Assembly (NCBI GenBank): GCA_021803405.1
Contig: JAJZLO010000018.1
Coordinates: 1 to 7,011 of the forward strand
DNA: 7,011 bases
Source of the DNA: Microcaldota archaeon
GTDB lineage: Archaea; Micrarchaeota; Micrarchaeia; Micrarchaeales; CABMGC01
Direction: 5' to 3'
Shown here: positions 3,389-6,823 of the stretch, piece by piece
Numbering within the stretch: the first letter of the stretch is position 1
Layout: every line of letters begins with the position of its first letter
Notes under the pieces: model-generated
The model's database searches: none
What the model saw: only the letters and a program-made list of their open reading frames with translations
Told to the model about the DNA's origin: nothing
Program-made: the position numbers and the translations under genes

Positions 3389-3475
3389 GCGGGGGTGGCA
3401 GAGTATGGTCAAATGCGCAGGACCGAGGCTCCTGTAGCTTTAGAGCTTGCGTGAGTTCAAATCTCACCCCCCGCA
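3389..3475 (+). tRNA. tRNA-Leu, anticodon GAG
   Basis: Complete class II tRNA. Acceptor arm GCGGGGG (3389-3395) pairs with CCCCCGC (3468-3474), with discriminator A3475. The D stem is GCA/TGC. The anticodon stem CAGGA/TCCTG (3418-3422/3430-3434) closes the loop CCGAGGC, so the anticodon is GAG at 3425-3427. The long variable arm (3435-3450) contains the AGCT-TTAG-AGCT hairpin expected for Leu. The T arm GTGAG/CTCAC closes an ordinary TTCAAAT loop, so there is no intron. No CCA is encoded. Position 33 is C, not U. A Leu tRNA at this place between rpo3 and rpl18e is a known archaeal arrangement, and the 12-bp spacing suggests it is cut out of the operon transcript. Confidence 0.95.
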
Positions 3476-5119: not shown

Positions 5120-5206
5120 GGGGTCGTCTGCTAGTTTGGTTAGGCTTTGTGCTTAGGGAGCATAAGACCCGAGTTCAAAAAGAAATTGAAAATCTCGGCG
5201 ACCCCA
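5120..5206 (+). tRNA. tRNA-Pro, anticodon reads AGG, with 13-nt intron in the T-loop
   Basis: Acceptor GGGGTCG (5120-5126) pairs with CGACCCC (5199-5205), discriminator A5206. The D loop has G18-G19 (5138-5139); the D stem is TGCT/GGCT with a U10-U25 mismatch. The anticodon stem TGTGC/GCATA (5148-5152/5160-5164, one G-U pair) closes loop TTAGGGA, giving U33, anticodon AGG at 5155-5157, G37 and A38. The T stem CCGAG/CTCGG (5169-5173/5194-5198) closes a 20-nt loop instead of 7; removal of 13 nt restores TTCAAAT. The body resembles archaeal Pro tRNAs, and Pro at this operon position is conserved, so identity is well supported; the exact anticodon is odd. No CCA is encoded. Confidence 0.92.
5180..5192 (+). 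other. Predicted 13-nt T-loop intron of tRNA-Pro (between tRNA positions 59 and 60)
   Basis: The T-loop folds as a relaxed bulge-helix-bulge. TTCA (5174-5177) pairs with TGAA (5187-5190) to form the 4-bp central helix stacked on the T stem. The bulges are AAA (5178-5180) and AAT (5191-5193), and an A-U pair closes a GAAA tetraloop (5182-5185). Cutting after the second base of each bulge, the rule for archaeal splicing endonuclease, releases 13 nt and leaves TTCAAAT. Confidence 0.85.
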
Positions 5207-5234
5207 AATTTGTAAAAAATAAGATGGTGAAAAA

Positions 5235-5849
5235 ATGACCGATGAAATGCTCGTTGACCAGAATGAATACTTAGAGGTAGGAATACACATAGGCACTAAG
5301 GTAAGAACACCTGGAATGAAGAAGTACATATATAAAGTAAGAGAGGATGGACTTTATCTGTTGGATCTTGCAACGATAGATAAAAGGATTAAGATGGCCG
5401 CAAAGATGCTTGCAAGATACGATCCTTCAGATATAGTGGTCACCGCTTCAAGAATATACTCCATAACAGCGGCAACAAAGTTTGCTGAGATTACTAAAAT
5501 AAAGCTTATTACAGGAAGAGTAATGCCAGGATTGTTTACAAATCCAAACAGAGAGGACTTCATTGAACCAGAAATAATAATTATAAGCGACAATAGAAAC
5601 GAGAGGCAAGCGATAAAAGAGGCCAGTAAAACAAGCGTTCCGATAATAGCTTTGTGCGATACCGATAACTGGATAAAGTTTGTTGATCTGGTACTGCCTT
5701 GCAATAATAAGGGAAGAAGATCATTATCCTTGATTTACTTCCTTCTCGCAAGAGAGTTCATGAAGGAGAAAGGATTAATAAAGACCAATGATGAATTTAA
5801 TTATAAAGTCTCTGACTTCGAAGCGAAGGTTGAGATGAAGGCGAAGTAG
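5235..5849 (+). CDS. rps2: 30S ribosomal protein S2 (uS2)
   Basis: Small-subunit protein at the junction of head and platform. The 204-residue product begins with LVDQNEYLEVGIHIGTKVRTPGMKKYIYKVREDGLYLLDL (residues 6-45), the archaeal S2 signature region. It continues with DIVVTASRIYSITAATKFAE (66-85), the GRVMPGLFTNP stretch and EPEIIIISDNRNERQAIKEA, then VPIIALCDTDN and the NNKGRRSLSLIYFLLAREF block. Length is normal for archaea. Start ATG5235 is fixed by a perfect GGTGA at 5226-5230. It sits 28 bp after tRNA-Pro; in many archaea enolase lies between, which is not the case here. The TAG stop abuts the TTG that opens the pilin-like gene. Confidence 0.96.
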   Translation: MTDEMLVDQNEYLEVGIHIGTKVRTPGMKKYIYKVREDGLYLLDLATIDKRIKMAAKMLARYDPSDIVVTASRIYSITAATKFAEITKIKLITGRVMPGLFTNPNREDFIEPEIIIISDNRNERQAIKEASKTSVPIIALCDTDNWIKFVDLVLPCNNKGRRSLSLIYFLLAREFMKEKGLIKTNDEFNYKVSDFEAKVEMKAK

Positions 5850-6389
5850 TTGCATTTGAAAAATAGAATAAAAGGCCAGGCAGCCATGGACTTCATGGCG
5901 TCGTATGGAATAGCACTGATAATCATAATAGCAGCTGTGTCAGTAATATACATAGTAAGCAGCTCTAACTCCGATATATTTCAACAGTCCTGCACTGCTT
6001 ACTCGGGTTTTTCTTGCGGCTCTTTCTTTTTAACTGAGAATGGAGTTTTAAATATAACACTTGCACAAGCAACAGGAGGAAATGTACTGGTAAATGGAAT
6101 AGCATGCTCATCTACACAGGCAAGCGGTGGAGATGTGCCAGCGTATGGAAATTATGATGTCTTTAATAGTTTTTATTACTATCCAAACAACGAGTTTGCA
6201 AATGGAGTTTATATTAATACTGGCAGTTCTGCTTCATTTGATCTTTATTGTTATGATTCATCCGGAGTGGCTATATCTTCGACAAACGCAGGCGCTTTCG
6301 TAGGATACATCTGGCTCAATTATACAATACTTGGAACAAATGTTAAGACAACGCAATTAGTCGCTTCGTTCACCGCGCAGTATACATGA
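5850..6389 (+). CDS. Class III signal-peptide protein, pilin-like, function unknown
   Basis: A 179-residue secreted protein with an archaeal class III (type IV pilin-like) signal peptide. A short basic leader ends in IKG, followed by QAAMDFMASYG and a hydrophobic helix (about residues 20-38, IALIIIIAAVSVIYIVSSS). A prepilin peptidase would cut between Gly9 and Gln10. The rest is Ser/Gly/Asn/Tyr-rich, as in surface subunits, with four cysteines (48, 56, 86, 134) that could form two disulfides, and N-glycosylation sequons NIT (68-70) and NYT (157-159). Its exact role (pilus, adhesin or other surface fibre) is not recognisable. The frame opens with TTG5850 directly after the rps2 stop; TTG5856 is as likely, and there is no ATG before the signal peptide. 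No separate promoter is obvious, so co-transcription with rps2 is likely. Confidence 0.82.
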   Translation: MHLKNRIKGQAAMDFMASYGIALIIIIAAVSVIYIVSSSNSDIFQQSCTAYSGFSCGSFFLTENGVLNITLAQATGGNVLVNGIACSSTQASGGDVPAYGNYDVFNSFYYYPNNEFANGVYINTGSSASFDLYCYDSSGVAISSTNAGAFVGYIWLNYTILGTNVKTTQLVASFTAQYT

Positions 6390-6418
6390 AGATATATTTA
6401 CCTCTGAAACTTCGCATA

Positions 6419-6429
6419 CATATATAAAT
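6419..6429 (+). promoter_or_regulatory. TATA box of the Sm-like gene
   Basis: CATATATAAAT is centred about 44 nt before the ATG at 6468, placing initiation near 6450 and leaving a leader just long enough for the GGTGA ribosome-binding site at 6459-6463. Confidence 0.6.
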
Positions 6430-6467
6430 TTAACGAGATAATAATAGAGCATTTATTTGGTGAAATA

Positions 6468-6701
6468 ATGAACATGAACCATGAAAGGCCATTCGACCTT
6501 TTAAACAAGGCAATAGGACAGCAAGTACTTATTAGATTGAAGAATGGAGACGGTATAAGAGGAAAGGTGCAGTCTTTTGACGTGCATATGAATATTGTGC
6601 TTGAAGGCGCCGAGGAACTTGATGAAGGCGGAAGCACAAAAACAAAGTTAGGTGTAATACTTTTAAGAGGAGGAAATATTCTTTTTATCTCTCCTGCTTA
6701 A
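6468..6701 (+). CDS. Archaeal Sm-like protein (SmAP / Lsm)
   Basis: RNA-binding protein of the Sm/Lsm family, which forms heptameric (sometimes hexameric) rings that bind U-rich RNA. At 77 residues it is the usual size. The Sm1 motif is seen at RPFDLLNKAIGQQVLIRLKNG through GKVQSFDVHMNIVLEGAEE (7-50), with the RNA-contacting FDVHMN. Sm2 is LGVILLRGGNILFISP (61-76), where RGGN replaces the more common RGDN. ATG6468 is set by GGTGA at 6459-6463; Met3 is a second possible start. In many archaea the Sm gene is followed by rpl37e; here tRNA-Ala follows 13 bp after the stop, so the two may share a transcript. Confidence 0.93.
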   Translation: MNMNHERPFDLLNKAIGQQVLIRLKNGDGIRGKVQSFDVHMNIVLEGAEELDEGGSTKTKLGVILLRGGNILFISPA

Positions 6702-6714
6702 GAGTTATATTTAT

Positions 6715-6823
6715 GGGCTCCTAGCGCAACGGTAGCGCGCCTGCATGGCATGCAGGAGGTTGCGGGTTCAAATAAACTTCCTGAACAAAGAATCAAGAAG
6801 CTTTGAAAATCCCGCGGAGTCCA
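6715..6823 (+). tRNA. tRNA-Ala, anticodon GGC, with 37-nt intron in the T-loop
   Basis: Acceptor GGGCTCC (6715-6721) pairs with GGAGTCC (6816-6822); the third pair is G-U, the alanine identity element, and the discriminator is A6823. The D stem is GCGC/GCGC (6724-6727/6735-6738). The anticodon stem CCTGC/GCAGG (6740-6744/6752-6756) closes ATGGCAT, giving U33 and anticodon GGC (6747-6749). The variable loop is AGGTT. The T stem GCGGG/CCCGC (6762-6766/6811-6815) closes a 44-nt loop that returns to the standard TTCAAAT when 37 nt are removed. No CCA is encoded. It lies 13 bp after the Sm-like gene with no well-placed TATA box between, so it may be processed from that transcript. Confidence 0.95.
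6773..6809 (+). other. Predicted 37-nt T-loop intron of tRNA-Ala (between tRNA positions 59 and 60)
   Basis: TTCA (6767-6770) pairs with TGAA (6804-6807) as the 4-bp central helix on top of the T stem. The bulges are AAT (6771-6773) and AAT (6808-6810). The intron side continues as a helix: A6774-T6803, A6775-T6802, an A-C mismatch, then CTTC (6777-6780) with GAAG (6797-6800), capped by a 16-nt loop. Cutting after the second base of each bulge leaves TTCAAAT in the mature tRNA. Confidence 0.88.

Follow-up and report, generated by a model that had tools for sequence, protein, structure and literature searches.

The stretch of DNA analysed here (the window, 7011 bp with 35% GC) is a Micrarchaeota gene cluster in which two tRNA genes, one for Pro and one for Ala, carry an insertion at site 59/60 of the T-loop (Table 1). 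Both were found, at 5120 and 6715, with a custom tRNA scanner whose criteria were the T-stem, the acceptor stem, the D-arm, and T8. ARAGORN, and Rfam at its gathering score, missed the two genes and detected tRNA-Leu alone in the window, and the RF00005 matches to the homologues of the Ala gene in two related genomes (G001 and G010) end at TTCA. The acceptor stems are complete, with 7 Watson-Crick pairs in Pro and 6 Watson-Crick pairs plus one G-T in Ala, and each gene has a T-stem of 5 bp. Removal of the insertions leaves the T-loop TTCAAAT and intact stems in both genes, so that a normal tRNA is restored.

The exon sequence TTCA pairs with TGAA of the insertion in both genes, as in a bulge-helix-bulge (BHB) substrate, and the second bulge is AAT in Pro and Ala alike. 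In RNA folding, both T-arms formed the T-stem and the central helix as well as a 3' bulge of 3 nt, with z scores of -2.57 (Pro) and -3.69 (Ala). A preliminary description of this DNA had proposed one structural rule for the pair (a TTCA/TGAA helix formed by the T-loop itself, the same splice position, and an AAT bulge), and the sequence, the scan, and the folds bear it out.

Table 1 Features of the window discussed in the text
Feature	Position	Strand	Details and basis
tRNA-Pro, T-loop interrupted	5120..5206	+	anticodon loop TTAGGGA, reads AGG; acceptor 7/7 bp, T-stem 5/5 bp (scanner)
Intron of tRNA-Pro, 13 nt, site 59/60	5180..5192	+	A / A-GAAA-T / TGAA / AA
Exon half of Pro central helix, TTCA, positions 54-57	5174..5177	+	pairs with 5187-5190; fold, and covariation at 57 in relatives
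Intron half of Pro central helix, TGAA	5187..5190	+	fold; pair table in relatives
tRNA-Ala(GGC), T-loop interrupted	6715..6823	+	scanner
Intron of tRNA-Ala, 37 nt, site 59/60	6773..6809	+	inner hairpin CTTC.TGA / TCA.GAAG; fold z -3.69
Exon half of Ala central helix, TTCA	6767..6770	+	pairs with 6804-6807; fold
Intron half of Ala central helix, TGAA	6804..6807	+	fold
Ribosomal protein S2 gene, adjoins tRNA-Pro	5235..5849	+	PF00318
tRNA-Leu(GAG), T-loop uninterrupted, in-window control	3389..3475	+	ARAGORN, Rfam

The pairing rule in related genomes

Loci of relatives were collected with the ribosomal protein S2 gene as the anchor; the closest relative by this locus is 92% identical to the window, and the few S2 relatives that bear names are all called Micrarchaeota, Micrarchaeia, or Marsarchaeota metagenome-assembled genomes (MAGs). 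We searched 80 related genomes, in sets of 50 and 30, with the pattern GGGTTCRA N(6-36) YGRAANYCCC, in which position 57 and its intron partner are free to vary independently, and used the reversed pattern as the control. The search returned 141 interrupted T-loops in 63/80 genomes (48/50 and 15/30), against 2 matches for the reversed pattern. The preliminary description had predicted more such introns in the window's own genome, and in relatives the prediction is supported. These numbers are an undercount, because the pattern requires a T-stem ending GGG/CCC and an intron of 11 to 41 nt. All but one of the matches (140/141) could be read in a locus, four of them in another genome's locus holding an identical match; 137/140 have a T-stem and an acceptor stem (≤1 mismatch), and the other 3 are cut off or contain N.

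The 4-bp central helix between exon and intron is retained with covariation: exon base 57 and its intron partner were A-T in 127 sequences, G-C in 9, G-T in 4, and A-C in 1 (Fisher p 1.5e-10). At the first position of the inner stem, 122/141 sequences have a Watson-Crick pair (67 T-A, 24 A-T, 23 G-C, 8 C-G), 4 have G-U, and 15 are unpaired. Pro is nearly absent from the pattern matches because its usual T-stem ends GAG or GCG; read directly, 65/68 tRNA-Pro genes of this type in 69 loci (L001-L069) have the intron, and no tRNA-Pro gene was found in L051. The Pro intron is identical to the window's, letter for letter, in L001, L002, L003, and L007. Among 13-nt Pro introns the closing pair is A-T (the window, L001-L003, L007), C-G (L041, L053), G-C (L042, L049), or T-A (L044), and the four-base loop is GAAA in all except L044. 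Insert lengths run from 11 nt (L016) to at least 47 nt (Arg-CCT of G010). In the loci of relatives the scanner gave 75 interrupted candidates; a few look spurious (such as L018, one in L072, and one in L080), and this list was not used for any count.

The tRNAs that are interrupted

Six kinds of tRNA account for 131/140 readable matches, the distribution being Arg-CCT 30, Ser-GGA 26, Ala-GGC 26, Ser-CGA 24, Arg-TCT 24, Pro 1, and others 9. Isotypes were assigned by reading the anticodon loops; Ser-GGA is tentative, and one of the others is a truncated Arg-CCT. On a 727-kb contig of G010, 5 tRNAs are interrupted at this site, as against 28 seven-base T-loops by scan (a count whose members were not checked singly), and the part of G001, the closest kin, that was fetched holds four T-loop introns, in Pro, Ala, Arg-TCT, and Ser. 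Hits discarded by eye as protein-coding or low-quality numbered 1/6 of those interrupted on the G010 contig (at 658565) and 3/7 in G001. The suggestion that an intron of this kind could land in almost any T-loop does not fit this distribution; recurrence at a small set of tRNAs is as expected of inheritance. A Leu tRNA of G010 (G010:C11:306218-306315) has another kind of T-loop insertion (GAGTTCAAAAACTTTGAACAAATCTC), which lies outside the 59/60 count.

Some tRNA-Pro genes carry a second intron, at 53/54, where exon CCCG faces intron YGGG and the bulges are AG/N and AA/T. It is present in 16/68 Pro genes, 14 of which also have the T-loop intron (L010, L014, L016, L020, L024, L039, L045, L047, L054, L055, L056, L057, L060, and L068), and a 6-nt exon, TTCAAA, separates the two. 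The 53/54 and 59/60 motifs compete for a strand of the T-stem, and their removal is therefore probably ordered; passages of PMC8450103 describe introns so near each other that one must go before the next BHB can form.

Three further observations concern the tRNAs of these genomes. In G001, an intron in a tRNA with a CAT anticodon (G001:C29:6277-6396) contains GTGATGA and GATGA, which we take to be box C-like motifs, perhaps of a guide RNA. The tRNA-Phe and tRNA-Ala(CGC) genes of G001 occur as two copies each, with different intron loops and on different contigs, perhaps reflecting mixed strains in the MAG. The anticodon AGG (A34) is found in all 69 tRNA-Pro genes parsed (from 68/69 loci L001-L069, plus the window). 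By scan, the Pro tRNAs of the G010 contig are one TGG, one CGG, and one AGG, with none GGG, and CCC is common there (1902/9001 Pro codons in crude open reading frames). PF00383 had no match in 8/13 genomes of relatives, which are possibly incomplete. A 2021 review states, in the portion consulted, that all ANN anticodons are missing in archaea and that an A34 deaminase is unknown there (PMC8007984); rare exceptions were found in PMC6000648.

The splicing enzyme and the likeness of the two introns

The preliminary description had called for the type of splicing endonuclease to be identified, and in the relatives it is of the epsilon form. PF01974 matched in 13/13 genomes, with two adjacent matches in one frame in 7/13. 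The 385-aa protein at L142 of G001 has a match to the ARMAN-2 enzyme (4FZ2) spanning residues 9-385 (E 1.3e-146), and it contains PF02778 and two PF01974 stretches; that is, a single chain close to the ∼390 aa expected of an epsilon2 enzyme, with an N-terminal unit and two C-terminal-type domains. The protein at L137 has one PF01974 stretch. The Y, H, and K of the catalytic triad (Y236, H251, and K282 of 4FZ2) and the lysine of the specificity loop (K161), numbered as in the part of PMC6379350 consulted, are all kept in the alignment of this one protein. By sequence, the relatives thus encode an epsilon-type splicing endonuclease like that of ARMAN-2, and the organism of the window presumably does as well. 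A proposal in part of PMC12397907 is that the specificity loop lets the enzyme accept introns whose conformation varies.

The Pro and Ala introns resemble each other at their 3' ends (AAGAAATTGAAAAT in Pro, AAGAAGCTTTGAAAAT in Ala). The preliminary description counted two inserted bases and no other change; we count one substitution as well as two indels, an edit distance of 3, with TGAAAAT itself unchanged. The shared TGAAAAT is dictated by the structure of the substrate, in keeping with the endonuclease constraint that the preliminary description offered as one explanation. What remains is AAGAAAT in Pro and AAGAAGCTT in Ala. Scores as good as that of the real Ala interior against Pro were often reached by shuffled ones (p=0.37 for mononucleotide and 0.42 for dinucleotide shuffles), and 22/140 relatives' T-loop introns did equally well. 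Beyond TGAAAAT the likeness is marginal at best, with p from 0.03 to 0.42 depending on the measure. In the closest relatives the Ala intron is quite different (34 nt in L001, 20 nt in L003) and the Pro intron is identical to the window's. In the comparison of T-loop introns among relatives that had been proposed as a check, the site and the pairing are kept, and the Ala interiors of these closest relatives differ from that of the window.

These results are consistent with both insertions being BHB-type introns at 59/60 that are cut by an epsilon2-type enzyme, with inherited sites, fast-changing interiors, and a chance likeness, and we hold this reading to be very probably correct. Exon T54-T55-C56-R57 pairs with intron YGRA in the central helix, and the T-stem would serve as the outer helix. 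The epsilon2-type archaeal tRNA-splicing endonuclease would cut at both bulges, the 5' one perhaps in a relaxed form, and ligation would give the TTCAAAT T-loop again; we infer both cleavage and ligation from sequence. A small set of tRNAs in Micrarchaeota would have kept the 59/60 sites by inheritance, while the interior of the intron turns over fast under the constraint of forming a hairpin, a turnover that is seen when the window's Ala intron is set beside those of L001 and L003. The substrate rule would impose TGAAAAT, and the further Pro/Ala likeness would be chance in A-rich sequence. On this account, most of the resemblance between the two introns follows from the pairing with the tRNA that splicing requires of both.

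Several observations weigh against this reading. The 5' bulge does not form in the minimum-energy fold of either T-arm, in which the central helix is prolonged to 5 bp in Pro and 6 bp in Ala, and the enzyme may thus act on both introns as relaxed motifs; in relatives, the covariation of the first inner pair is compatible with a 5' bulge. The covariation counts are of sequences and not of independent events. Three tRNA-Pro genes (L027, L043, and L067) have no T-loop intron. The enzyme and the further introns are known from the genomes of relatives and not from that of the window's organism. By edit distance, the Pro/Ala likeness is borderline and not plainly random: 7.3% of random 9-mers from the window, and 3/108 introns of relatives (the 108 of 141 that were long enough), are equally close.

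Other origins, known systems, and meaning

A different source for the Ala interior is suggested by a hairpin, AAACTTTT-loop-AAAAGTTT-N-ATCAAAAG, that is common to several 37/38 introns of different tRNAs in G001 and G010. Its exact pattern gave 30 matches in 17/50 genomes and 0 when reversed; 5/30 lie in G001 and G010, the genomes that supplied the motif, and several are near-identical orthologues. By reading, 17/30 belong to 37/38 introns, the tRNAs being those for Gly, Ile, Ala, Thr, and Phe; 3 lie in tRNA-like fragments, and 10 are elsewhere, among other places in the 16S trailer and in reading frames that contain the pilin-like motif QSAMEYLMTYG. The sites (L359-L388, G001/G002/G010) thus comprise tRNA introns, positions after the 16S 3' end and after tRNA 3' ends, and coding sequence. 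A covariance model of the hairpin found 2 to 17 matches at E ≤ 1 per genome in 12 genomes (the best 150 candidates being scored in 11 of the 12). Among 99 sources, a subset of the loci with T-loop introns, the model matched the Ala T-loop introns of L004 (E 0.0033) and L005 (E 0.047) and the Ser T-loop introns of L166 and L236, both of the latter being model members.

Such hairpins might seed or refill BHB introns, and the interior of the window's Ala intron might descend from one (AAACTTTT-loop-AAAAGTTT-N-ATC-AAAAG). The abundance in 37/38 introns, the matches in Ala and Ser T-loop introns, and the closeness of the window's Ala interior to the best of 26 hairpin elements relative to shuffles (p 0.001 and 0.002, in a post hoc test) argue for this descent; the model had no match in the window, and common function or convergence of AT-rich hairpins might also account for the resemblance. 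We consider the descent unlikely, with a modest chance of being right. A bolder version, to which we give somewhat less credence, is that a ∼28-nt hairpin (AAACTTTT-NNN-AAAAGTTT-N-ATC-AAAAG) multiplies genome-wide in Micrarchaeota and turns into an intron on landing at tRNA site 37/38 or 59/60, the remainder of the BHB being provided by the tRNA arm; the Ala intron would then be a worn copy. The last segment of the hairpin tends to repeat the 3' stem strand, which gives the 5' strand two possible partners. Were this version true, the hairpin would be an archaeal counterpart of eukaryotic introner elements. In either form the 37/38 hairpin family is a better lead for intron spread than the Pro/Ala pair.

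Two side observations concern pilin-like sequences. In L374 (1447-1531) and L361 the hairpin lies just upstream of the QSAMEYLMTYG signal motif, in frame by reading, and L374 has two hairpin copies, each followed by QSAMEY. The window has an open reading frame (5850-6389) with a pilin-like N-terminus (GQAAMDFMASYGIALIIIIAAVSV) and no Pfam match.

The other explanation offered in the preliminary description was intron spread between tRNA genes. Recent spread would mean that, within this lineage, a copy of the Pro intron entered tRNA-Ala or a copy of the Ala intron entered tRNA-Pro. It draws on the likeness of a 14-nt to a 16-nt stretch, on the rarity of other introns as close by edit distance, and on intron transposition between tRNA genes in Thermoproteales, as described in parts of PMC4033280 and PMC4090602. 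The shuffles and the equally scoring introns of relatives speak against it, and the likened pieces differ structurally, being a loop in Pro and a strand of the inner helix in Ala. Spread as the reason for the likeness is not supported: in L001 and L003, where the Pro intron is unchanged, the likeness is absent. Unusual likeness of different tRNAs' introns within a genome, the mark of Thermoproteales-type transposition, was not detected for the T-loop introns: 221 same-genome pairs had a mean z of 0.36, compared with 0.22 between genomes (1500 of 13,287 pairs sampled; p=0.12). Introns of the same tRNA across genomes were slightly more alike (mean z 0.51, p 1.3e-5; 1500 of 2961 pairs sampled). 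The input was 53 introns from Pro and 130 from Ala, Arg, and Ser, interiors under 5 nt being left out; 16/69 Pro loci, 12 of them with an intron, were not parsed by the regular expression, so that the test covered 53/65 Pro introns. We conclude that recent spread is largely refuted and very improbable, and we reject common ancestry for the 3' segments of the two introns on the combined grounds of the shuffles, the edit distances, the differing Ala introns of the closest kin, and the within-genome test. Inner stems of the form ATAAAC..GTTTAT, which recur in several genomes in the introns of Ala, Ser, and Arg tRNAs, were likewise not accepted as proof of spread, given the within-genome p value.

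That the insertions are not introns, the genes being pseudogenes or the T-loop being extended in the mature tRNA, would fit the failure of ARAGORN and Rfam to find either gene and is hardly credible, as each cloverleaf is otherwise intact, with conservation across tens of genomes, the widely varying insert lengths go with covarying pairs, and the parts of G001 and G010 that were read hold no uninterrupted copy of this Pro or Ala gene.

The preferred reading, that of inherited BHB-type introns, places the two genes among known systems. T-arm or T-loop introns and multiple introns have been described in archaea, multiple ones also in ARMAN-1/2, in the portions consulted of PMC4033280, PMC12397907, and PMC6379350. 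The BHB introns at noncanonical sites that these sources report in part (in the T-arm, in Thermoproteales and ARMAN-1/2) share with ours the exon-intron pairing, the T-loop position, the short length, and a broad-specificity endonuclease. Unlike those, the present introns recur at one site in a few tRNAs across many Micrarchaeota genomes and are as short as 11-13 nt. The permuted tRNAs of Thermofilum pendens and Cyanidioschyzon merolae have the same 59/60 junction (parts of PMC3218864 and PMC3978253); their genes are circularly permuted, whereas those of the window have the normal order with an inserted intron. With regard to the ARMAN-2 epsilon2 enzyme (PDB 4FZ2, 9W2K), the protein of a relative aligns end to end with the triad and the loop lysine kept; the matching enzyme is known from relatives. 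Similar introns in different tRNAs, as in Thermoproteales-type transposition, are seen here for the 37/38 hairpin family and not for the Pro/Ala T-loop pair. A clade-wide set of T-loop introns was not found in print, a weak negative from a limited literature search.

The Pro and Ala introns are therefore a known kind of intron in a new place and not a fresh copy-and-paste event. They belong to a natural series at one site, with nearly one exon sequence and lengths from 11 nt to at least 47 nt, by which the minimum substrate of a broad-specificity enzyme becomes directly testable. They also illustrate how easily a splice-site rule is mistaken for intron homology, as a sequence like TGAAAAT is required at the 3' end of any such intron. 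Because ARAGORN and Rfam miss or truncate such genes, these genomes may be wrongly taken to lack some Pro, Ala, Arg, and Ser tRNAs.

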